From Deltaproteobacteria bacterium (GTDB lineage: Bacteria; Myxococcota_A; UBA796; UBA9615), in assembly GCA_023954745.1 (NCBI GenBank), contig JAGSHC010000048.1, positions 1 to 32,494 of the forward strand: a stretch of DNA of 32,494 bases, in the 5' to 3' direction. Below the pieces are notes generated by a model. That model saw only the letters and a list, made by a program, of their open reading frames with translations. It searched no databases and was not told the origin of the DNA. Shown here in pieces: positions 3,679-30,160 of this stretch. The position numbers were made by a program, and so were the translations under genes. Each line of letters opens with the position of its first letter. Positions within the stretch are counted from its first letter, which is position 1.

Positions 3679-5178
3679 TCACACGATGTTCAGCGAGAAC
3701 CCGACCGCGGGGAGGAGGCTGGCCTCATCCACCAGGTCTGCGTGCTTGAGCGGGTGCTCCGCCAGCCAGCCCACGGGGAACCTCAGGACGAGGTCGTTGC
3801 CCTTGGCCGACATCGCGATCGGAGGCTGCGAGCGCGACGATCGGGTGCGATGCAGCCGCACCGCGAGGCGCAGCAGCACGGTGAATTGCAAGGCCAACTG
3901 GAGCTGGGATGGACCGATGTGCTCGCTCACCCGGTCGAGGTGGAGCTTGCGACGGTGGTTGCCCACCGCCGACGCCAACAGGGCCTGGTCCGCGCGGGAG
4001 AACCCGGGCATGTCCGCGTGCCGCAGCAGATAGGCGCCGTGCTTGTGGTACCCGCTGTGGTTCACCGAGAGCCCCACCTCGTGGAGCAGGCAGGCCCAAG
4101 AGACGAAGCGCTGCCCGTCGAGCCGGTCGATGCTCCAGGCGTCGCACACCTGGTGAAACAGACTCAGCGCGGTCCGCTCCACACGGGCCGCGTGCTCGCG
4201 ATCCACGGAGTACCGTTGCTGAAAGCTGGCGATGGTGAGGTCCCGCGCGTCTTCGTGGTGCAGCCGCCCCAGCAAGTCGTGGAGCACCCCTTCACGCAGG
4301 GCTCCCTGGGACGCGACCATCTCCTCGATGTGAAACGTCTCGAACACCGCCCGGAGAATGGCGCCCCCACCGGCAATGGAGACGGCTCGGTCGTGACTCA
4401 ATCCCGCGAGGTTGCGCGCTCGGAGGGACGCTACGTCGCCGGCGGAGAGGATCTCAGCCTTGAGGGAGTTCAGCGCGTCCAGAGTGATCCCGGACTGCGC
4501 CCACCCAGCCTCACGGGTGATCGCCTCGATGGACTTGATGGTGCCAGAGCTTCCATAGACCGCCTCCCACCCCAGGGCGCGGTAGCGACGCTTGATCCCG
4601 CCCAGCTCGATGCGGGCGCGGGTGTGGGCGTCCTCGAAGGCCTGCTTCGTGAAACCGTCTTGGAAGAACTTGATGGACCACCGCAGATGACCCATCTGCA
4701 CGGAGTCCCGCTCAATGGGTCGGTTCCCCTGACCCACGATGAGCTCGGTGGAGCTCCCACCGATGTCCACAACGAGCCGCCGCTGCGGGTACTCCGGCAC
4801 CGATCGAGCGACGCCGAGGTACACGAGGCGTGCTTCCTCCTGGCCCGAGACCAGCTCGATGGAGTGCCCCAGCGCCTCCTCGAACTTCGGGAGGAACTCG
4901 CGGGCATTCTTGGCGCGACGAAGCGTGTTGGTGCCCACGGCGCGCGTCGCGGTGGTGGGAAGCTCCGCGAGCCGCTCCCCGAACTTCAGCAGGCAGTCGA
5001 GGGCGCGCTTGCGGGTGTCGGCGTCGAGGTTCTGATCGGCATCCATGCCCGCCGCGAGACCCACCCGCTCGCGCAAGCGATCCATGACATGCACCCCGCC
5101 TTGGTCGACGCGAGCCACCACCATGTGGAAGGAGCTCGAGCCCAGGTCGATCGCCGCGTACTGATTGCCTTCCGACAT
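3679..5178 (-). CDS. ppx: Exopolyphosphatase / pppGpp phosphohydrolase (Ppx/GppA family)
   Basis: 499 aa. Residues about 1-310 form the actin-like two-lobed Ppx/GppA domain: AAIDLGSSSFHM near the start, GTNTLRRAKN, the VDIGGSSTELI phosphate loop and a later SIAGGGAIL. The C-terminal 180 residues are the HD-like domain, with LLHEVGLSVNHSGYHKHGAYLL. The length matches full E. coli Ppx rather than the short form. It should remove terminal phosphate from polyphosphate and possibly from pppGpp. The ATG at 5178 fits the domain start; longer frames add only low-complexity residues. No clear Shine-Dalgarno is visible. It is close to ppk1 but not in one operon with it. Confidence 0.93.
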   Translation of the reverse strand: MSEGNQYAAIDLGSSSFHMVVARVDQGGVHVMDRLRERVGLAAGMDADQNLDADTRKRALDCLLKFGERLAELPTTATRAVGTNTLRRAKNAREFLPKFEEALGHSIELVSGQEEARLVYLGVARSVPEYPQRRLVVDIGGSSTELIVGQGNRPIERDSVQMGHLRWSIKFFQDGFTKQAFEDAHTRARIELGGIKRRYRALGWEAVYGSSGTIKSIEAITREAGWAQSGITLDALNSLKAEILSAGDVASLRARNLAGLSHDRAVSIAGGGAILRAVFETFHIEEMVASQGALREGVLHDLLGRLHHEDARDLTIASFQQRYSVDREHAARVERTALSLFHQVCDAWSIDRLDGQRFVSWACLLHEVGLSVNHSGYHKHGAYLLRHADMPGFSRADQALLASAVGNHRRKLHLDRVSEHIGPSQLQLALQFTVLLRLAVRLHRTRSSRSQPPIAMSAKGNDLVLRFPVGWLAEHPLKHADLVDEASLLPAVGFSLNIV

Positions 5179-5284
5179 CCGGCGAAGGGTGCCACAACCG
5201 GGACCCCGCGGGCCTCGCGCCGCGTGGTTCGCCCCAGCTGTTCCCAAGACCGAGGATGATCATGTTCCTCGTTCGCGCCCGTCC

Positions 5285-5290
5285 TACGGT
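5285..5290 (+). promoter_or_regulatory. TACGGT, putative -10 of a leaderless transcript
   Basis: TACGGT ends 6 bases before the ATG at 5297 and no Shine-Dalgarno is present. It is part of the window-wide TANNNT pattern. Confidence 0.4.
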
Positions 5291-5296
5291 GCTCCA

Positions 5297-5830
5297 ATGG
5301 AGAGACCTCATCAGCGACCCAGGTTCCGGTTCCTCGTCCACCGCGATCGCGCGGAGGTGACCTCGCTCCTCGAGCAGGGGCTGACGATGGACGGGACGCC
5401 CTGCGTCGGAAGCGTCAGCCAGGCGCACGCCTGGATCCACGTGCGCGCGGAGGCTCGCCACTTCTGGTCCCCGACGCTGGACCTGATGCTCGAGGAGACG
5501 GAGGCCGACGAGCCGGAGCAGGGCACCTGGCTTCGAGGGCGCTTCGCGCCCCACCCCAGCGTGTGGAGCATGTTCATGTTCATCTACGCGGTGCTGGGCC
5601 TTCTTGCGACCCTGGCCGCCATGTACGGCTTCGCTCAGATCACGCTGGCCGAGCCGCCCTGGGCCTTTGGGGGCACCGCTGCAGGCGTCGCGCTGATCGG
5701 CTTCGTGTACGGCGCGACCTTCATCGGACAGGGACTCGGCGCCGAGCAGATGACGGAGATCCGCCTCTTCCTCGATCGCACGGTGGGGCCCGGCCCCGAG
5801 GCCGTTCAGTCTCCGCAGCCGGACCAGTAG
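5297..5830 (+). CDS. Small inner-membrane protein, unknown function
   Basis: A 177 aa protein with no recognised family. The N-terminal ~95 residues are soluble-looking (FRFLVHRDRAEVTSLL, WIHVRAEARHFWSPTLDLMLEE). Two membrane segments follow, about residues 94-115 (MFMFIYAVLGLLATLAAMYGF) and 121-145 (PWAFGGTAAGVALIGFVYGATF). The C-terminus is a short acidic/Pro-rich tail. The layout resembles small membrane proteins that carry an SRPBCC-like domain, but this is not certain. The ATG at 5297 is chosen over an upstream in-frame start because the extra 44 residues overlap the divergent ppx start and look non-coding. Confidence 0.7.
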   Translation: MERPHQRPRFRFLVHRDRAEVTSLLEQGLTMDGTPCVGSVSQAHAWIHVRAEARHFWSPTLDLMLEETEADEPEQGTWLRGRFAPHPSVWSMFMFIYAVLGLLATLAAMYGFAQITLAEPPWAFGGTAAGVALIGFVYGATFIGQGLGAEQMTEIRLFLDRTVGPGPEAVQSPQPDQ

Positions 5831-5840
5831 CCCGAAGCGC

Positions 5841-6713
5841 TCAGCTCTGGGAGGCCGCCAAGGCCTGACCCGCTCGCTTCACCGCTTGCTCCACGGCTGC
5901 CCGCAGGGCGCGCGCGGTGGGGTAGCGCTTGTCCCGACTCACGGCGAGGCAACGCTTGAGAGGGAGCTTCACCTCGTCCGGCAGGAAGGCGCGACCCTTT
6001 TCGTCGCCCCAGCTGCCGCTCACGACCTCTTGCATCGTGTCGAAGTCGTTCTTCGCCGCGAAGGCGGGGCGCCCAACGAGGGCCTCGTACAGAACGACGC
6101 CGGCGGCCCACAGATCGCAGCGGCGGTCGATGTCGGGCTCCGACCGCACCTGCTCGGGACTCATGTAGTTCGGCGTTCCGACCCGAGGAGGGAGGCGGTG
6201 ATTGCGCTTCTCCCGAAGCGTGCGCTCCGTGAGCCGGGCGATGCCGAAGTCGAGGAGGACCGGCGAGACACCGTCTTCGGCGTCCTGCAGGAAGATGTTC
6301 GAGGGCTTGAGGTCGCGATGCACGATCCCGCGCTCGTGCACCTGGTGCAGCGCATTGAGCACGGGGACGAGGTAGCCCGCGATCTCGTTGAGATCGAGGG
6401 AGCCCTTCTGGTCGAGCACCGACCGCAGGTCGCGGCCGACCATGTGGTCCCGCACCAGCCCAGCGATGCCTGGCTCGATGAGGACGTCGGTGATGGCTGC
6501 AAGGTGCGGCTTCTTGAGCCGGCTCAGCGTCCTCGACTCGCGGAGGAAGCGCTCGCGCACCTCCTCCTCGGCGAGCTCCGCGGGAAGCATCTTGAGCACG
6601 TGCACGGTGCCGTGAATGGAGTGCTTGACGCGGTACGTCGAACTGGTGTCCGCGTGGCCGAGCATCTCTTCCACGACATAGCGGTCAATGGTCTGTCCAG
6701 GTTCTAGCGACAT
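5841..6713 (-). CDS. Hanks-type Ser/Thr protein kinase, soluble
   Basis: 290 aa and almost entirely kinase domain (about residues 11-275), with no membrane segment or sensor region. The catalytic loop VHRDLKPSNIFL, the metal-binding DFGIARL and MSPEQ in place of APE are intact, and the ATP-anchoring Lys is in VLKML. The glycine-rich loop is degenerate: LGHADTSSTY keeps only the first of the three glycines. Substrates are unknown. It lies 36 bp downstream of yggS on the same strand, but TAAGAT 8 nt before the ATG could give it its own transcript. The ATG at 6713 is preferred to an upstream TTG because it directly precedes the domain. Confidence 0.9.
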   Translation of the reverse strand: MSLEPGQTIDRYVVEEMLGHADTSSTYRVKHSIHGTVHVLKMLPAELAEEEVRERFLRESRTLSRLKKPHLAAITDVLIEPGIAGLVRDHMVGRDLRSVLDQKGSLDLNEIAGYLVPVLNALHQVHERGIVHRDLKPSNIFLQDAEDGVSPVLLDFGIARLTERTLREKRNHRLPPRVGTPNYMSPEQVRSEPDIDRRCDLWAAGVVLYEALVGRPAFAAKNDFDTMQEVVSGSWGDEKGRAFLPDEVKLPLKRCLAVSRDKRYPTARALRAAVEQAVKRAGQALAASQS

Positions 6714-10395: not shown

Positions 10396-12795
10396 TCACG
10401 CCCCCCAGAGCAGCTCCTGCAGCTCTCCGGGGAGGAGCAGACCCAGGGCGCCGGACGCCGAACTCTGCTCATCGAACGGCTGCTCGTCGCCTTCGGCTAC
10501 CTCTTCGGACCACCGAGCCACCAGCAAGGGGACGGGGTCGGGGAGATGATCTCCCGTGGAGCTGTCGGTCCCGTGATCTGCGGACAGGACGATCCGCAGG
10601 CCCTCGGCGAGGGTGGGGTGCGCCTCGAGCATCGCGCCGAGCGCCTTGTCGACCCGTTCGAGGAAGTCGCGCTTCTCCAGGGGCCGTCGATCGTGTGCCG
10701 CGATGTCTGTGCCCTTGATGTGCACGACGACGAGGCCTCGGTCGGTCAAGAGGTCAGCCGCTGCCTCGAACTTCGCGCCGAGGTCGGTGTCGAGGTTCGC
10801 CGTCATGGCATGGGAGGTGACAGGCTGGAGCCCTACAGCCCGAGCTACGCCATGGGCGGTCGTGCAGCCAGCGACCATGGCTGCCTGCAGTGGCGAAATG
10901 CGGGGCTTGGGGAGCTCCCGGCCGGACGCCGCGCCCCGCGTGATGATGCAGTTCGCGATGGCCAGTCCCTGCCGGGCGCGTTCCGCGTTCAGCGGATGAG
11001 CGGCGAGATGCTCTCGAGCCCGCACGAGCAGCTCCTTGAGGGCCCGGCTGGTGCGGGCGGCTTCGGGGCTCCCGTCCTTCGGGTGAGCGTCCAGCACGCG
11101 CTGGTCCAAGGCGGAGGACCCAGGATCCGTGTCTGAGACCGCGTCGCTCAGGCCGGGCCCGCGGAGCATGACCACCACACGATGCTCGTGGGCAGGGGTC
11201 AGGGAGCCACGGATGCCGTCGCTGAGGCGGACGTCGCGAAGCTCTGCCAGGAGGTCGCCCGTCCCCGACCGGATGCGGCCGGCCCGTCGGTCGACGATCT
11301 CACCCTGGCCTCGGCAGGTGGCGAAGTTCCCCCGGAACACCACAGCGTCGCGGGGCACGTTCACCCCCATCCCCAACGCCTCGAGGAGTCCGCGCCCGAG
11401 ACGCCCGCCTCGGTCCCGTGGCCCCGCGAGGAGGGAGAGCAGGCCTTCGTCGGTCTCGGGGGGGGTGTCGCCGCCGCTGCCCGTCTGGACTTGTCCCTGT
11501 CCCCCCGCCGCGGCGAGCCGGCGTAGCACCGGGAGATGGGCCGCTCCCAGCGGTGTCTGTCCCCCGAGCGCGGTCGATGGCCGGTCCGCGACCCCGTCGA
11601 GGATGAGGAACAACGTGCGGGGCTCGAGGCGCTGGAAGGAGGTCGTGGAGGGCGCGCCCGGTGCGAAGTCGATGGAGCGGCTGAGCACTTCGAGGACCTG
11701 ATCCACCGTCGAGTCGAGCGAGCTGCTGGGGACGACCAGGGCTCCGTGCTCCTCGGCCTCGGCGAGGAGGTCGTCGTGAATCCACCGGACCGCCTGGAAG
11801 GAGCCCAGGTAGTCCGCGGAGGGGCGCTGGGGTTGGGCGCTGGCTCGCTGAGGAAAGCGCTGCCGGTGGGCGCGCTTGCTGTTCAGGGCGAGGACGAGGC
11901 CGGCGACCACCACCCGAGCGTCGGCGGGGACGTATCGATGAAAGGGCGGAAGGACATGGGTGCCCTCGATGACCATCGAGGTGGACTCGCGCGCGGCGCG
12001 CCGCACGATCGCCCGGAGCCCCACGGCCACCTGGTCGGCCTGCTGTCGGAATCCGGCGAGCACCCGCTCCCGAGGGTCCGACAGAGCCTGCCCGCCCAGG
12101 GCCATCCCCCGAAAGCTGTGGTCGTGCAGACCCGGGACGACCTCGCGGGACAGGACGGAGCGCATGGCCTCGCGGACCATGTCCGTGCTGGTGACCTGGG
12201 AGATGCCGAGTCGGAAGGCCAGCTCGGTGGCGACCGTGCTCTTGCCGGTGCCCGTGGCGCCGCCGATGAGCACGATGAGTGGTCGCTCGGAGAGGCGGAT
12301 CGACGTGATCAGCTCGTAGCGGCGGCGTTCGCGCTCCCCAAACTCCTCGGCAAGCACACCGAAGACGATGTCCTCGGCCTCGCCCTCGTCGATGATCGCC
12401 CGGCCGAGGACGCGCAGTCTCCCCTCGACGAGGTGGGCCAGGTCGATGGCCTGATCGGGGGTCAAGCCCGCGGTGAGAGCAAAACGAAGCAGCCGGTTGG
12501 TGGAGAAGGGGGCCATCCCTGCGGTGCCACGCACCTGGGGCAGGTCGGAGACGCGCTCCGGGACGAGGGCGTGGCCAAGGGCCTCGGCGGCCAGGGCATC
12601 GATGGACGCCTCGAGCTCGTCGACGCCGATCTCCGCGCGGCCTCGGAGCGCGTCGCGGATGCGGGCGGAGCCGTCAAACGCCTGGGGCATGAGCAGCCCC
12701 CGCTGGATGAGTGCCGCCGTCACCATTCCAGTCTGGAACCGGTAGCTCCCCTCCGGGCCGACGACCATTGTGCGTTCTCGCTTGCGGGTTCCCAT
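10396..12795 (-). CDS. Fusion: 2-phosphoglycerate kinase + archaeal-type (ApgM) phosphoglycerate mutase
   Basis: 799 aa in three parts. Residues about 10-100 resemble the ATP-cone-like region found in front of archaeal 2-phosphoglycerate kinases. Residues 170-375 are a P-loop kinase (GGATGTGKS at 178-186; MVIEGTHVLPP near 275-284). Residues 393-799 are alkaline-phosphatase-superfamily ApgM: LILDGVADRP (metal Asp at 400), RGLLEALGMGV, FRGNFAT, IVDRRAGRI, VHIKGTDIAAHD and ADHGTD...GDHLPDPVP. Kinase relatives make 2,3-bisphosphoglycerate from 2-phosphoglycerate; ApgM interconverts 2- and 3-phosphoglycerate without that cofactor. The expected nucleophilic Ser of ApgM appears as Thr (PPETDEGLL, Thr448). 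The ATG at 12795 has TAGGCT 6 nt upstream and no Shine-Dalgarno. ATG at codon 10 is an alternative start. Confidence 0.88.
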   Translation of the reverse strand: MGTRKRERTMVVGPEGSYRFQTGMVTAALIQRGLLMPQAFDGSARIRDALRGRAEIGVDELEASIDALAAEALGHALVPERVSDLPQVRGTAGMAPFSTNRLLRFALTAGLTPDQAIDLAHLVEGRLRVLGRAIIDEGEAEDIVFGVLAEEFGERERRRYELITSIRLSERPLIVLIGGATGTGKSTVATELAFRLGISQVTSTDMVREAMRSVLSREVVPGLHDHSFRGMALGGQALSDPRERVLAGFRQQADQVAVGLRAIVRRAARESTSMVIEGTHVLPPFHRYVPADARVVVAGLVLALNSKRAHRQRFPQRASAQPQRPSADYLGSFQAVRWIHDDLLAEAEEHGALVVPSSSLDSTVDQVLEVLSRSIDFAPGAPSTTSFQRLEPRTLFLILDGVADRPSTALGGQTPLGAAHLPVLRRLAAAGGQGQVQTGSGGDTPPETDEGLLSLLAGPRDRGGRLGRGLLEALGMGVNVPRDAVVFRGNFATCRGQGEIVDRRAGRIRSGTGDLLAELRDVRLSDGIRGSLTPAHEHRVVVMLRGPGLSDAVSDTDPGSSALDQRVLDAHPKDGSPEAARTSRALKELLVRAREHLAAHPLNAERARQGLAIANCIITRGAASGRELPKPRISPLQAAMVAGCTTAHGVARAVGLQPVTSHAMTANLDTDLGAKFEAAADLLTDRGLVVVHIKGTDIAAHDRRPLEKRDFLERVDKALGAMLEAHPTLAEGLRIVLSADHGTDSSTGDHLPDPVPLLVARWSEEVAEGDEQPFDEQSSASGALGLLLPGELQELLWGA

Positions 12796-12797
12796 GA

Positions 12798-12813
12798 CCG
12801 CAGCCTACTGCGG
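12798..12813. repeat. Short inverted repeat over the putative -10 of the kinase-mutase gene
   Basis: ccgcag-ccta-ctgcgg is a perfect 6+6 repeat. It overlaps the minus-strand TAGGCT (12802-12807) that ends 6 nt before the ATG at 12795. It may be a regulatory site. Confidence 0.35.
12802..12807 (-). promoter_or_regulatory. TAGGCT, putative -10 of a leaderless transcript
   Basis: On the minus strand the hexamer ends 6 bases before the ATG of the kinase-mutase fusion. No ribosome binding site is visible. Confidence 0.4.
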
Positions 12814-12877
12814 CCACAGCAACCACGCTCGACACCTGTCCGCCACGGAGCCGTCACACGGGGCCGCAGCCTCGGCG

Positions 12878-12883
12878 TAGCAT
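12878..12883 (+). promoter_or_regulatory. TAGCAT, putative -10 of a leaderless transcript
   Basis: The hexamer ends 6 bases before the DUF47 ATG at 12890, with no Shine-Dalgarno between. Confidence 0.4.
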
Positions 12884-12889
12884 GCGGGC

Positions 12890-13561
12890 ATGCGCTCGCT
12901 AGCAAACCTGTTTGGCCCCTCGCCGTTCCGCCCCCTCCAGGACCACATGGAGAAGGCCGTGTCTTGCGCTCAGGAGGTCACGGGACTCGTGGGCGCTCTC
13001 ATCGCCGGTGACACCGCGGATCTCGCGGCGCGTCAGGAGCGCACGGCGGCTCTGGAGAGTGAGTGCGACGAGATCAAGAACAAGCTGCGGGCGCACCTTC
13101 CCCGACGGCTGTTTCTGCCGGTGGACCGCCGCGACCTGCTCGAGGTCCTCGACCTGCAGGACTCCATCGCCGACGCCGCCGAGGACGTGGGTGATCTCCT
13201 CGTGATGCGGGCCTGGGTCGTCCCCGCCGACATGCGCGCGCCCCTCAAGGTCCTCGCCGCGTCCGTCGTGGCGGCCGCCGAAGGGGCGGGCCGGGTGATG
13301 GACCACCTCGACGAGCTCGTCGAGACTGCGTTCGTCGGGCCCGAGCTGGCCCGGACCGAGAAGCTCATCGAGGAGGTGCAGACTCTCGAGGCCGACGCCG
13401 ACCGCGCAGAGGATGTGTTGCTCAGGCTGCTGTTCCAGCACGAGGACGAGGTCGGCGCGGTGGGGGTCTTGATGTGGCTTCGCCTGATCGAGACCATGGG
13501 CGACGTCGCCGACTTCAGCAAGAAGTCCTGCAACCGCCTGCGTCTGCTCATCGCGCGGTAG
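12890..13561 (+). CDS. DUF47/TIGR00153 family PhoU-like protein
   Basis: 223 aa all-helical protein. FGPSPFRPLQDHMEKAVSCAQEV, AALESECDEIKNKLRAHLPRRLFLPVDRRDLLEVLDLQDSIADAAEDVGDLL and the conserved C-terminal LIETMGDVADFSKKSCNRLRLLIAR are typical of the family. The E/D-rich helices resemble the metal-binding repeats of PhoU. Relatives usually sit beside a Pit-type phosphate transporter and modulate it. No pit gene follows here, because the next gene is convergent, so the partner is elsewhere or absent. It is transcribed away from the 2-phosphoglycerate kinase fusion. Confidence 0.9.
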   Translation: MRSLANLFGPSPFRPLQDHMEKAVSCAQEVTGLVGALIAGDTADLAARQERTAALESECDEIKNKLRAHLPRRLFLPVDRRDLLEVLDLQDSIADAAEDVGDLLVMRAWVVPADMRAPLKVLAASVVAAAEGAGRVMDHLDELVETAFVGPELARTEKLIEEVQTLEADADRAEDVLLRLLFQHEDEVGAVGVLMWLRLIETMGDVADFSKKSCNRLRLLIAR

Positions 13562-16028: not shown

Positions 16029-16847
16029 CTAGGTGAAGGGCAGGAGCATCTTCCCGAGGATGAAGTCGGAGACGAGGATGCTGATGGAGAGGATCACCAC
16101 GGTGCGGGTGGTGGCCACGCCGACCCCCGCGGTGCCCCCCTTGGTCTGCATGCCCTCGTAGCACCCGACCATCCCGTAGATGAAGCCGAAGAACACGGCC
16201 TTCACGAGGCCATGGACGACCTCGGAGATGTCGGTGCTGCGCAGCACCTGGTCGAAGTAGTAGGAGGGGGTGAGCCCCTGCTCGGCGATGGCGACGAGCC
16301 CTCCGCCGGTGATGCCGACCACGTCGGCCATGAGAGCGAGCATGGGCATCGTGATGACGCAGGCGAGCACGCGGGGAAGGACCAGCTTGTGCACCGGACT
16401 CGCGCCCATGGCCCGGATGGCGTCGATCTGCTCGGTCACCTTCATGGAGCCGATCTCCGCGGTGATCCCGGCGCCCACGCGTCCTCCCACGAGCAACGCC
16501 GTCAGCACTGGTCCGAGCTCCATCACGAAGCCCACGGAGATCACGCTTCCCACGTAGTTGGAGGCGCCGAAGCGCGCGAGGCTCCAGCCGAACTGCAGGG
16601 CCATCACTGCGCCGGTGAAGAGCGCCGTGAGAAAACCGATGGAGATGGACTGCACGCCCAACTGAAGGATCTGGCGCAGCAGCTCGCGGAACGGGAAGGG
16701 CCGCAACGTGAACGCCAGCAGGGTCTCCCAGGTGAGCCGCGACATGGCGCCGAAGGTGCTCAGAAAGCTGAGCGTGCTCCCGCCGATCGCCGCGAGGGCG
16801 TCGGGGAAGGCCGAGAAGGTCGCCGAGGGCCCCTCCTCGTCCGTCAA
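16029..16847 (-). CDS. MlaE-type lipid ABC transporter permease
   Basis: About 272 aa integral membrane protein of the MlaE/YrbE/TGD1 family. Seen are LQLGVQSISIGFLTALFTGAVMALQ, ELGPVLTALLVGGRVGAGITAEIGSMKVTEQIDAIRAMG (the family's coupling-helix region), LVLPRVLACVITMPMLALMADVVG and a C-terminal GCYEGMQTKGGTAGVGVATTRTVV. Such permeases move phospholipids between membranes with an MlaF-like ATPase and an MCE (MlaD) protein. The best start is TTG at 16847, overlapping the lipoprotein stop (TTGA), because no ATG or GTG occurs before the conserved N-terminus. No mlaF or mlaD gene follows; the sulfotransferase is next after 153 bp. Confidence 0.88.
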   Translation of the reverse strand: MTDEEGPSATFSAFPDALAAIGGSTLSFLSTFGAMSRLTWETLLAFTLRPFPFRELLRQILQLGVQSISIGFLTALFTGAVMALQFGWSLARFGASNYVGSVISVGFVMELGPVLTALLVGGRVGAGITAEIGSMKVTEQIDAIRAMGASPVHKLVLPRVLACVITMPMLALMADVVGITGGGLVAIAEQGLTPSYYFDQVLRSTDISEVVHGLVKAVFFGFIYGMVGCYEGMQTKGGTAGVGVATTRTVVILSISILVSDFILGKMLLPFT

Positions 16848-17392
16848 CGGCCTTCTCGGATGGCGAGGCCAGCCACGACCGTCTCGTAGTCGGCCAGCTC
16901 GGCGTCGAAGCGCGCGACGTCCGCGGTGACGTACACGAGGTCGAAGATGCAGGGGCCCTTCTTGACGACGGTGCTCGCGAGCTTCACCGGGATTCCATCC
17001 AGCGAGGCGCTGAACACCCGGCGCAGGCCGGCACGCCCGGCGAGGTCGATCTCCTCCTGGGCGTCGGTCTGGAGGTCCTCGAAGCCGAAGGTGAGGTGGT
17101 TGATGAGCACGCTCAGTGGCACGTCGTAGTACTTCTTGCCACAGGTCGAGTCGCCGTAGATGGTCGCCGGGGCGCTGCGGTGGACCCAGGCGAAGTCCGC
17201 CGTCTGGGCGGAGTCTCGGGACCAATCCGAGCCGGGGGAGCCGGCCCGCCACGCCACCTCCTTGCCCTTGTCGTTCCCGTTGGGGATGCGCTGCACGGTC
17301 CAGCCGTCCGACGTCGTGCGGCCACTTCCCTGCGTGGTCGCGCAGCTGGCGAGCAGGATGAGGGACAGGAGCAGGACGACAGCGCGGTGCAT
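16844..17392 (-). CDS. Lipoprotein of unknown function coupled to the MlaE permease
   Basis: 182 aa. It has a lipoprotein signal with lipobox LLASC (Cys at about residue 17). The mature part includes WRAGSPGSDWSRDS, HRSAPATIYGDSTCGKKYYDVPLSVLINHLTFGFED and VVKKGPCIFDLVYVT, with two Cys that could pair. No family was recognised with certainty. The stop overlaps the start of the MlaE-type permease, which suggests a functional link such as a lipid-transport accessory at the inner face of the outer membrane (inference). The ATG at 17392 is chosen for the signal peptide; TACCCT ends 6 nt upstream. Confidence 0.78.
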   Translation of the reverse strand: MHRAVVLLLSLILLASCATTQGSGRTTSDGWTVQRIPNGNDKGKEVAWRAGSPGSDWSRDSAQTADFAWVHRSAPATIYGDSTCGKKYYDVPLSVLINHLTFGFEDLQTDAQEEIDLAGRAGLRRVFSASLDGIPVKLASTVVKKGPCIFDLVYVTADVARFDAELADYETVVAGLAIREGR

Positions 17393-25609: not shown

Positions 25610-28600
25610 ATGGCCACTGCATCCCCGCATCCCGCTCCCGCCGCGCCCTACAACCCCACGAACCACGTGCGCATCGTCACTGCCGCGTCGCTGTTCGACG
25701 GACACGACGCCGCCATCAACATCATGCGGCGCATCCTGCAGTCGAGCGGCGCCGAGGTGATTCACCTGGGCCACAACCGCTCCGTCCAGGAGATCGTGGA
25801 CTGCGCCATCCAGGAGGACGCCCAGGGCATCGCCATCACGAGCTACCAGGGCGGCCACGTCGAGTACTTCAAGTACATGGTGGAGCTCATCTCCGAGCGG
25901 GGCGCCAACATCAAGGTCTTCGGGGGCGGCGGCGGCACCATCCTCCCCAGCGAGATCGACGAACTGCACGCCCACGGCGTCACCCGCATCTACTCCCCCG
26001 ACGACGGACGCTCCATGGGGCTCCAAGGGATGATCAACCACCTCCTCACCGCGTGCGACTTCGAAGTCCGCGGCCCCGCCATCAACGGTGAGATCGACGA
26101 GCTGTCCCAGCGTCGCGACGCAACCATCGCTTCGCTGATCACCGTGGCCGAGAACCACCCCGAGTCTCGCGAGCTGCTCCGGGAGCGCCTCGCCGCGGTC
26201 ACGTCCGACAAGGTCGTCCCCGTCCTCGGCATCACGGGCACCGGCGGCGCCGGCAAGTCGTCGCTGGTGGATGAGCTCGTGCTCCGCTTCCTGCGGGACT
26301 TCGAGGACAAGTCCATCGCGGTGCTGTCCATCGATCCGTCCCGCCGGCGCACCGGTGGCGCGTTGCTCGGGGACCGCATCCGCATGAACAGCGTCGACCA
26401 CCCGCGGGTGTACATGCGTTCGCTGGCGACGCGGCAGAGCAACCTGTCCATGTCGGCCCACGTGAAGGACGCCATCGCCATCTGCAAGGCGGCGGGCTTC
26501 GACCTCGTCATCGTCGAGACGAGCGGCATCGGCCAGTCCGACACCGAGATCGTCGACCACAGCGACGTGTCGCTCTACGTCATGACCAGCGAGTACGGCG
26601 CCGCCACGCAGCTGGAGAAGATCGACATGCTCGACTTCGCCGACGTCGTGGCCATCAACAAGTTCGACAAGCGCGGGTCCCTGGACGCGCTGCGGGACGT
26701 GCGCAAGCAGGTGCGCCGGAACCGTCAGCTGTGGGATGCCCGGGACGACGAGCTGCCCGTGGCCGGAACCATCGCCTCGCAGTTCAACGACCCCGGCATC
26801 AACCGGCTCTACCGCACGCTCATGGATACCCTGGTGGCCCGGACCCAGGCCAAGCTGAGCAGCAGCCTGGAGAGCGGCGCCGAGCCGAGCGAGAAGATGA
26901 TGGTCATCCCGCCGGACCGCGTGCGGTACCTGGCCGAGATCGCCGAGTCCGTCGACGACTACGCGGCCCACGTCAGCAAGCAGGCTGGCATCGCGCGGCG
27001 CCTCTTCCAGCTCGCCGGGACCATCGCCGCGCTGCGGGGCAAGGACCTGCAAGGCGTGGCGCCGGAGCTCGTCGCTGAAGACGGCGACAACGATGCCGTG
27101 GCCGGGCTCCTCGCCATGTACACCGAGCTGCGCTCGCGCATGGAGCACGACGCCCGGGAGCTGCTCCTGGCCTGGCCGGCGCTGCAGGACCAGTACGGCG
27201 GGGACACCTACAGCTACGAGGTGCGCGGCCGAACCATCGAGCAGCCGCTGGTGCGCAGGTCCCTCTCCGGCACGAACGTGCGCAAGGTGGTCTTGCCTCG
27301 CTTCAGCGACTGGGGCGACACGCTGTCGTGGCTCATGCACGAGAACGTGCCCGGGGGCTTCCCCTACGCCGCCGGCGTCTTCCCCATCAAGCGCACCGGC
27401 GAGGACCCCGCCCGCCAGTTCGCCGGAGAGGGTGGCCCCGAGCGCACCAACCGACGCTTCCACTACCTGTCGGTGGGCACGCCGGCGACCCGTCTCTCCA
27501 CGGCCTTCGATAGCGTCACGCTCTACGGCGAGGACCCCGACCACCGCCCCGACATCTACGGCAAGGTCGGCAACTCCGGCGTCTCCATCGCCAACGTGGA
27601 CGACGCGAAGAAGCTCTACTCGGGCTTCGATCTGTGCGCCAAGACCACCTCCGTCAGCATGACCATCAACGGCCCCGCGCCGATGTTGCTGGGCTTCTTC
27701 CTCAACGCGGCCATCGACCAGGCCTGCGAGACGCACATCAAGGACCTCGGTCTCGAGCACCTCGTCGAGGAAGCCTTCGTCACCCACTACGACAGCAAGG
27801 GCATCGCGCGCCCGACCTACAACGGCGAGCTGCCCGAGGGACACAACGGCCTCGGCTTGATGCTGCTCGGGCTGTCCGGGGACCAGGTCCTCGATGCGGA
27901 CACCTACGAGGTCATCCGCGCCACGACCCTCGCCGCGGTGCGCGGCACGGTGCAGGCCGACATCCTCAAGGAGGATCAGGCCCAGAACACCTGCATCTTC
28001 AGCACCGAGTTCGCCCTGCGGATGATGGGCGACATCCAGTCGTGGTTCATCGAGCACGGCGTGCGCAACTTCTACTCGGTCTCCATCAGCGGCTACCACA
28101 TCGCCGAGGCGGGAGCGAACCCCATCACCCAGCTCGCGCTGACCCTGTCCAACGGCCTGACGTACGTCGAGTACTACCTGGCGCGCGGCATGGACGTGGA
28201 TGACTTCGCCCCGAACCTGAGCTTCTTCTTCAGCAATGGCCTCGACCCGGAGTACTCGGTCATTGGGCGGGTGGCGCGGCGGATCTGGGCGAAGGCCATG
28301 AAGCTGCGCTACGGCGCAAACGCGCGAAGCCAGAAGCTGAAGTACCACATCCAGACGAGCGGTCGATCGCTGCACGCGCAGGAGATCGCCTTCAACGACA
28401 TCCGCACGACGCTGCAGGCGCTGTACGCCCTGCAAGACAACTGCAACTCCCTGCACACCAACGCCTACGACGAGGCCATCACCACTCCCACGGAGGAGTC
28501 GGTGCGGCGCGCCCTGGCCATCCAGCTCATCATCAACAAGGAGCTGGGCTCGTCCATGAACGAGAACCCGCTTCAGGGCAGCTTCGCCATCGATGAGATG

Positions 28601-29041
28601 ACCGATGCGGTGGAGGCGGCGGTCCTCGAGGAGTTCCGGCGCATCAGCGAGCGGGGCGGCGTGCTCGGGGCCATGGAGCGGCAGTACCAGCGCAGCAAGA
28701 TCCAGGAGGAGTCCCTGGTGTACGAGCGGCTCAAGCACACGGGCGAGATGCCCATCGTGGGCGTGAACACGTTCCTCGACAGCAAGGGCAGCCCCACCAT
28801 CATCCCCGACGAGGTCATTCGCTCGACTACGGAGGAGAAGGAGTACGCCATCGCCTGCCGGGATGCGTTCCAGGCGCGCAACGCCGAGGCGGCCGAGGTA
28901 GCCCTCGCCTCGCTGGAGGCGGCGGCGCTGCGAGGCGACAACGTGTTCGACGAGCTCATGCAGGCCTGCCGGGTCTGCACGTTGGGTCAGCTGTCGCGCA
29001 GCCTGTACCGCGTGGGCGGTCAGTACCGCCGGAACATGTAG
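25610..29041 (+). CDS. icmF: Fused isobutyryl-CoA mutase (IcmF), B12-dependent
   Basis: 1143 aa. IcmF interconverts isobutyryl-CoA and n-butyryl-CoA and has its own G-protein chaperone. Residues about 18-150 are the B12-binding domain (LFDGHDAAI, His32 the likely cobalt ligand). Residues about 200-440 are the MeaI-like GTPase ([13 protein letters not shown]-loop from residue 207; [25 protein letters not shown]). The rest is the acyl-CoA mutase ([62 protein letters not shown]). The Phe in GVFPIKR, where methylmalonyl-CoA mutase has Tyr, supports isobutyryl over methylmalonyl specificity. It lies 96 bp after the lipase gene. Confidence 0.96.
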
Positions 29042-29349: not shown

Positions 29350-29413
29350 TGGTGCCCGCCCCCGGGGTCGAACCGGGATCCCGCCGCATCTGAGCCGACG
29401 TGCTCTACCGGTT
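29350..29413 (-). pseudogene. Degenerate tRNA: 3' part from D-loop to CCA, 5' end missing
   Basis: On the minus strand AACCGGTAGAGCA matches a D-loop and D-stem 3' strand. A 7-base anticodon-type loop CTCAGAT follows (would read CAG), then a 5-base variable loop, the T-arm CCCGG-TTCGACC-CCGGG and a 3' acceptor strand GGCGGGC-A-CCA. The matching 5' acceptor (GCCCGCC) and D-stem 5' strand are absent. There is also an extra base after the D-stem and a G-G mismatch at the top of the anticodon stem. A CAG (Leu) tRNA should have a long variable arm, which is missing. It is therefore a fragment or tRNA-like remnant, possibly an attachment site. The quinone-reductase reading frame stops inside it. 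Confidence 0.6.
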
Positions 29414-30160
29414 GGCGTAGACCCGCGCCGGAGGCCCTCCGGAAGAGCGAAGCCCCTCGCCGGCAGGACCGGGAGGGGCTTCGCAGATCACGTCGCGCGT
29501 CGCGCGCGCCTGCACCGGCGCCCCGAACCGGTTCACGAGCGCCTTGCCGTCCTCGACCCCCGCTGCCTGCGCCCGCTGGAGCATCGTCGCGCGGGAGGCT
29601 GGCGTGCTCGTCTCGATGCCCCCGAACGTGCTGACTCGCGTGGGCTTGATGCCCGTGAAGTGGAAGGTGGCGTTGCGCACCTGCCGCCGGGCCGAGGCCC
29701 CGTAGACCAGCCGGTCGTACCAGCCAAAGGCGTCCATGGTCACCAGGATGCGTCCAGTGCGCCCGCTGAGCCCTTTGTCGGGCAGCACACCGTCTCCTGC
29801 GGCGTAGGCCCAGCCTGGCTGGAACGCGCGGTCGAACAAGCCCTTCAGTTTCGCCGGCAGGCTCCCCCACCACACGGGGTAGGCCACGGTGACGTGGGCG
29901 GCAGCGGCGATCTCCGCCTGCACCCGGAGCAGGTCCTCTTCCAAGGGTTGCTCGCCGGTGTGGGCGAGCCGCAAGACCGGGTCGAACGCGAGGTCGTGTA
30001 CGTCCAGGACGTGCACTTCGGCGCCGCCGTCGCGAGCTCCATGGACCCAGGCATCGGCCAACGCGCTGTTGAAGCTCGAAGCGAGAGGGTGGGCGCGCAG
30101 GACAACTGCGCGGGCTGAGGTGGGAGCGGGAGGGAAGACGCGGCGGACGGACTTGGCCAT
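29405..30160 (-). CDS. Flavodoxin-fold NAD(P)H:quinone oxidoreductase (KefF/NQO1-like)
   Basis: 251 aa. After a ~17-residue arm, AVVLRAHPLASSFNSALADAW is the FMN/FAD phosphate region. VTVAYPVWWGSLPAKLKGLFDRAF and GRTGRILVTMDAFGWYDRLVYGAS are signatures of the NAD(P)H dehydrogenase (quinone) family. It probably performs two-electron reduction of quinones or electrophiles. The ATG at 30160 has AGGAG upstream. The last ~30 residues look unlike the family: they are encoded by a strong stem-loop and the edge of the tRNA fragment, so the original stop was probably lost. It is divergent from lysR, which likely regulates it. Confidence 0.88.
   Translation of the reverse strand: MAKSVRRVFPPAPTSARAVVLRAHPLASSFNSALADAWVHGARDGGAEVHVLDVHDLAFDPVLRLAHTGEQPLEEDLLRVQAEIAAAAHVTVAYPVWWGSLPAKLKGLFDRAFQPGWAYAAGDGVLPDKGLSGRTGRILVTMDAFGWYDRLVYGASARRQVRNATFHFTGIKPTRVSTFGGIETSTPASRATMLQRAQAAGVEDGKALVNRFGAPVQARATRDVICEAPPGPAGEGLRSSGGPPARVYANR
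29428..29442. repeat. 15-base palindrome near the quinone reductase 3' end
   Basis: ccggagg-c-cctccgg is a perfect 7+7 repeat around one base. It lies between the stem-loop at 29447-29484 and the tRNA fragment, within the tail of the reductase frame. Confidence 0.6.
29447..29484 (-). terminator. Strong stem-loop inside the reductase C-terminal coding tail
   Basis: gcgaagcccctc (29447-29458) pairs perfectly with gaggggcttcgc (29473-29484). Inside, ccgg pairs with ccgg around a 5-base loop, leaving one bulged G. On the minus strand it is followed by TCTTCC, so it resembles a factor-independent terminator. Lying within an open frame is unusual; it was probably once downstream of the reductase stop. 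Confidence 0.6.

Follow-up and report, generated by a model that had tools for sequence, protein, structure and literature searches.

A fused 2-phosphoglycerate kinase-type and ApgM-type protein linked to phosphate-uptake genes

Why a bacterium would join a 2-phosphoglycerate kinase (2PGK)-type domain to an archaeal-type phosphoglycerate mutase (ApgM) domain in one polypeptide is the question raised by a gene at positions 10396-12795 (minus strand) of contig JAGSHC010000048.1 from a Deltaproteobacteria bacterium (GCA_023954745.1). The whole stretch of 32,494 nucleotides that was analyzed is referred to as the window. The gene, which is single copy in its own genome, is a frame of 799 amino acids with an ATG start and without internal stop. 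On the minus strand it encodes a first cone-like repeat (residues 10-75; 12571-12768), a second cone-like repeat (residues 87-153; 12337-12537), a P-loop kinase domain of the 2PGK type (residues 170-375; 11671-12288), a linker that is poorly conserved in the alignment of fused proteins (residues 376-392; 11620-11670) and an ApgM-type domain (residues 393-790; 10426-11619), inside which a Pfam match places a PF10143 cap (residues 428-603).

Residues 9-375 match the 2PGK models NF008994 (257 bits, E 3e-76) and NF003259 (223 bits), and residues 393-790 match the ApgM models NF003104 (296.2 bits) and TIGR00306 (277.6 bits) as well as Pfam PF10143 and PF01676. All NCBIfam scores are below the curated cut-offs (603 bits for NF008994, 343 bits for NF003259, 320 bits for TIGR00306 and 489 bits for PRK04024, the 296.2-bit match), so that each half is a divergent relative and not an orthologue of the named enzyme. 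Stand-alone kinase homologues of the same phylum likewise remain below the 2PGK cut-offs, and one Rubrobacteraceae homologue passes NF003259. A PhpG-type transferase (NF038358) was rejected as a candidate, as its 195.8 bits fall far short of the cut-off of 545.

A preliminary description of the locus had taken the frame for one protein joining both domains, had named a sequencing join of two genes as the case against this, and had suggested a search for the same domain order elsewhere. Full-length fused orthologues without internal stops were identified in independent assemblies when the phylum and a large genome collection were searched, and at least 15 distinct genomes carry the fusion (~47-67% identity). 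The alignment consists of 12 distinct fused proteins including that of the window, one of which is cut off by a contig end; the other aligned proteins share 47-65% identity with that of the window. A class-wide search gave a fusion match at E 1e-60 or better in 13 of 71 genomes and added two fragments and further members whose identity reaches 67%. The carriers are uncultured bacteria, mostly Myxococcota; all are metagenome assemblies that bear the titles Deltaproteobacteria, Myxococcota or uncultured proteobacteria, with one labelled Oligoflexia. When either half was placed in a tree with its stand-alone relatives, the fused proteins grouped together in a single clade (100% support), so that the simplest history is one fusion event. 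An assembly join of two genes is ruled out by the independent orthologues and the single-origin trees, and the frame is indeed one protein.

The domain identities proposed for the two halves, including the cone-like N-terminus, were also right. Six of nine scanned N-terminal regions of relatives gave a PF03477 (ATP-cone) match (best E 1.2e-7), and the scan of the window member's own N-terminus gave no match. The structure predicted for the kinase half (mean pLDDT 91) has two cone-like repeats ahead of the P-loop domain, each with the element order strand-strand-helix-helix-strand-helix. The kinase core resembles nucleotide-monophosphate kinases and gluconate kinases in comparisons with the PDB, where no solved structure close to the kinase half was found beyond generic P-loop kinases. 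The Walker A motif (GGATGTGKST, residues 178-187; 12235-12264, minus strand) is intact, with G182, G184, K185 and S186 invariant in the 12 fused proteins. Fused kinase halves carry the group-specific motifs PGLHxHSF and VRWIHDD, whereas stand-alone homologues have PxIHxSSY.

These peculiar kinase-site motifs bear on the possibility that both halves act on another substrate, such as inositol phosphate or another polyol or acid phosphate, for storage or signalling, with 2-phosphoglycerate (2PG) being only the ancestral substrate. The kinase superfamily has changed substrate before, as the mevalonate-3-phosphate 5-kinase model NF008996 matches the same kinase domain and the plant 2PGK homologue LPA1 has been put forward as an inositol monophosphate kinase (PMC4844318). 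However, the C-terminal half retains the phosphoglycerate-binding motifs of ApgM, and we consider a change of substrate in both halves unlikely. For bacterial 2PGK homologues no assigned role was found, as far as the literature search could reach.

The predicted model of the C-terminal half (mean pLDDT 94.5) superimposes on archaeal ApgM PH0037 (2zkt) with a TM-score of 0.79/0.85. The predicted metal ligands D400, D697, H701, D740, H741 and H750 are conserved in every fused protein whose sequence reaches them: Asp400 (codon 11596-11598) is invariant in the alignment, and Asp697 with His701 in the DIAAH motif (10693-10707) and Asp740-His741 with His750 (10546-10578; all minus strand) are invariant in the fused proteins covering these sites. 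A dead enzyme is disfavoured by this conservation. The phosphoglycerate-site motifs DRRAGR and EHR are likewise retained where covered. In contrast, the position of the catalytic Ser of ApgM is occupied by Thr (Thr448, codon 11452-11454, minus strand) in all 12 aligned fused proteins and in three more genomes, while it is Ser in 24 of the 24 stand-alone relatives that cover the site. In the fused proteins, Leu, Ile or Met replaces the His four residues past the nucleophile (+4 His), which is found in host GpmI (N-S-E-V-G-H), in bacterial PRK04135-type ApgM and in archaeal 2zkt. Loss of this His is weaker evidence than the Thr nucleophile because stand-alone relatives of the PRK04200/ThrB-alt type also lack it.

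Within the same superfamily, phosphopentomutase, T85 variants of which appear among the structure matches of the C-terminal half, is a mutase that uses Thr. The phosphatase SPAP, also of this superfamily, uses Thr89 as nucleophile (PMC3145672). The Ser-to-Thr change thus signals an altered chemistry and by itself does not choose between phosphatase and mutase, since Thr serves in both.

The gene neighbourhood supplies the most informative of the new evidence. Phosphate-uptake genes adjoin the fusion in 11 of 15 loci, either as pstS-phoU-pstCAB or as PhoU_div and/or a PiT transporter. In the window, the divergent neighbour (12890-13561, plus strand) is a PhoU_div gene (DUF47; PF01865, E 1.5e-42; TIGR00153 above cut-off), which is the only copy in its genome and is separated from the fusion gene by 94 bp (12796-12889). 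PhoU_div is single-copy in three of the 11 fused genomes searched, and in all three it is adjacent to the fusion. The fusion faces pstS-phoU-pstC-pstA-pstB in L040, L043, L044 and L047 and faces pst genes of a cluster cut short in L041; in L046 a pst cluster precedes the fusion on its own strand and is separated from it by one gene. The fusion is located beside PhoU_div in L042, beside PhoU_div and PHO4 in L049, and by PHO4 in two later-found genomes, one of which has PhoU_div too. No phosphate gene was seen in the sequence available around the fusion in L039, L045 and L048. Direct Pfam scans covered the L044 cluster and single members of the others, and the rest were assigned by BLAST clustering with the scanned ones. 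Within an equal flank of 1.5 kb, a phosphate gene occurs in 8 of 12 fused loci and in none of 49 loci of stand-alone kinases or ApgM proteins (Fisher p 1.7e-7, which is only indicative because of shared ancestry and because the profiles came from the fused loci's own neighbours). A phosphate linkage as a trait of the whole kinase or ApgM family is ruled out by the 49 stand-alone loci.

Several further genes were observed around the fusions. In L040, L043, L044, L046 and L047, phoU is located between pstS and pstC, and its PhoU-domain product of ~350-370 amino acids is longer than usual. L044 encodes a phosphate-selective porin O/P (PF07396; 10393-11721, minus strand) downstream of the fusion, on the side opposite to pst, and L042 has a fructose-1,6-bisphosphatase gene (5094-6101, minus strand) on the fusion's other side. 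In the window, a Ppx/GppA-type exopolyphosphatase (3679-5247, minus strand; PF02541, E 5e-63) is located ~5 kb from the fusion gene and is possibly also part of phosphate physiology. No cyclic 2,3-diphosphoglycerate (cDPG) synthetase was recognised among the neighbour genes examined. Elsewhere in the window are an MlaE-type lipid ABC permease with ~150 extra N-terminal residues (16029-17252, minus strand), a 1143-amino-acid protein with B12-binding, MeaB GTPase and methylmalonyl-CoA-mutase domains (25610-29041, plus strand), which we take to resemble the known IcmF fusion, and a tRNA-Leu (cag) (29350-29426, minus strand).

Tandem 11-bp TGTCA-type repeats resembling Pho boxes are present in the divergent pst-fusion regions of L040, L043 and L044, where 4, 0 and 1 of 500 shuffles, respectively, were as good; these repeats may serve pstS instead of the fusion. 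The 94-bp intergenic region of the window contains no strong or convincing Pho box and no convincing sigma-70 promoter, and no relevant RNA element or tRNA was found near the fusion gene. The neighbouring PhoU or PhoU_div, together with the cone repeats, would also suit a regulatory protein whose domains serve mainly as sensors of 2PG or 3-phosphoglycerate (3PG) and of adenine nucleotides, with PhoU/PhoU_div or the Pst transporter receiving the signal. The conservation of the catalytic residues of both halves across ~50% sequence divergence suggests catalysis instead, and a purely sensory function is in our view very unlikely.

Canonical GpmI is present in 11 of the 12 fused genomes tested, with ordinary S-E-V-G-H sites in the three genomes in which it was checked, and GpmA above cut-off was found in none of the fused genomes tested. 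The fused ApgM is therefore not needed as a phosphoglycerate mutase, nor is 2,3-bisphosphoglycerate (2,3-BPG) needed as a cofactor. With this, the paradox around which the preliminary description was framed, that the kinase would make a cofactor for which the fused mutase has no use, falls away. An ordinary glycolytic or cofactor role, as an extra phosphoglycerate mutase or as a supply of 2,3-BPG for GpmA, is suggested by the family names and disfavoured by the GpmI/GpmA survey, by the phosphate linkage and by the nucleophile change, which together make it highly improbable. The fusion probably helps the cell to handle or store phosphate and not to run glycolysis.

The main rival is an enzyme of consecutive steps, in which the C-terminal half is a 3PG/2PG mutase feeding the fused kinase, so that 3PG and ATP yield 2,3-BPG and another enzyme removes the product. 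Fusions often join consecutive steps, Thr mutases such as phosphopentomutase exist, and the phosphoglycerate-site motifs and the PF10143 cap are retained. Against this, GpmI already supplies 2PG in 11 of the 12 genomes, and no fused protein retains the Ser nucleophile or the +4 His that host GpmI shares with bacterial and archaeal ApgM. We regard this succession of steps as rather unlikely.

We tentatively prefer, at somewhat less than an even chance, a bifunctional enzyme of phosphate physiology in which the kinase and the Thr domain form a reversible soluble phosphate buffer or signal. This is supported by the phosphate linkage, the TGTCA-type repeats, the separate GpmI and the Thr nucleophile with kept ligands and motifs. 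We infer the substrates, the direction of reaction and the regulation of the fused enzyme as follows. With plentiful ATP and phosphate, the kinase would add a phosphate to 2PG or a similar compound and so yield a bisphosphorylated acid, for example 2,3-BPG; the cone repeats would monitor adenine nucleotides. This pool would also be the target of the Thr domain, which would form a phospho-threonine intermediate and would most probably oppose the kinase as a phosphatase, giving back Pi and phosphoglycerate. The pair would follow a logic like that of PFK-2/FBPase-2. If the C-terminal half has instead remained a mutase, this one protein would take 3PG via 2PG to 2,3-BPG within a single complex. 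Of the three roles offered in the preliminary description, phosphate storage and a kinase reversed by a phosphatase are favoured by evidence that it lacked, the linkage to phosphate uptake and the Ser-to-Thr change.

Archaea use 2PGK to make 2,3-DPG for cDPG (PMC12136491, PMC10690619), and an overexpressed plant 2PGK homologue raises the total P of the seed (PMC4844318); the buffer or signal proposal fits both. Against the proposal, both halves score below curated cut-offs, so that the substrates may differ, and PGLHxHSF and VRWIHDD replace the stand-alone PxIHxSSY. Thr is no proof of hydrolysis, given that phosphopentomutase is a Thr mutase. In addition, the available sequence of three loci (L039, L045 and L048) lacks a phosphate gene, and the window has no evident Pho box. 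In its more specific form, the proposal would have this clade keep 2,3-BPG or a related bisphosphate as a soluble store of phosphate, or as a signal, that can be reversed rapidly. A single bifunctional enzyme, composed of a 2PGK-type kinase and an ApgM that has become a Thr-nucleophile phosphatase, would both form and break down the compound, under joint control with PhoU and with uptake by Pst or PiT; this is possible but on the unlikely side.

Both halves are of known folds, and what is new is their fusion and an unrecognised tie to phosphate physiology. A literature search with narrow terms, confined to papers available without subscription, found no published account of a kinase-ApgM fusion. 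Located next to pst, phoU and PiT genes across the clade and carrying a changed nucleophile, the fusion points to a concrete role that can be tested, phosphate homeostasis; if true, 2,3-BPG or a relative would stand next to polyphosphate among the possible phosphate reserves or signals of bacteria.

The N-terminal half shares with 2PGK (NF008994/PRK12337, NF003259/PRK04220; Methanothermus fervidus 2PGK), for which no solved structure was found by sequence, a cone-like N-terminus followed by a P-loop kinase with intact Walker A over ~370 residues, but differs in its scores below cut-off, its group-specific motifs at the likely acceptor site and the attached ApgM-type domain. Like ApgM (PRK04024, TIGR00306; PH0037/2zkt, Ta 3idd/3kd8), the C-terminal half has the alkaline-phosphatase-superfamily fold, the two-metal ligands, the PF10143 cap and both phosphoglycerate-site motifs; unlike ApgM, it has Thr for Ser, lacks the +4 His, stays below cut-offs and was found in the fused clade only as a C-terminal domain. 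PhpG, a CMP-5'-phosphonoformate--3-phosphoglycerate transferase, is also ApgM-related but has no kinase fusion. PFK-2/FBPase-2 joins a P-loop kinase to a phosphoglycerate-mutase-related phosphatase acting on fructose 2,6-bisphosphate. The analogy is functional only, because the C-terminal halves are not homologous: that of PFK-2/FBPase-2 has the histidine-phosphatase (GpmA-like) fold and that of the fusion is PF01676/PF10143. The Sphingomonas Thr alkaline phosphatase SPAP likewise places Thr between two metals but is a non-specific phosphatase without the ApgM cap domain and without a kinase partner (PMC3145672). Plant LPA1 offers a parallel in that its kinase family is tied to phosphate storage, as proposed here for the fusion, although no mutase fusion has been reported for it and its proposed substrate is an inositol phosphate.
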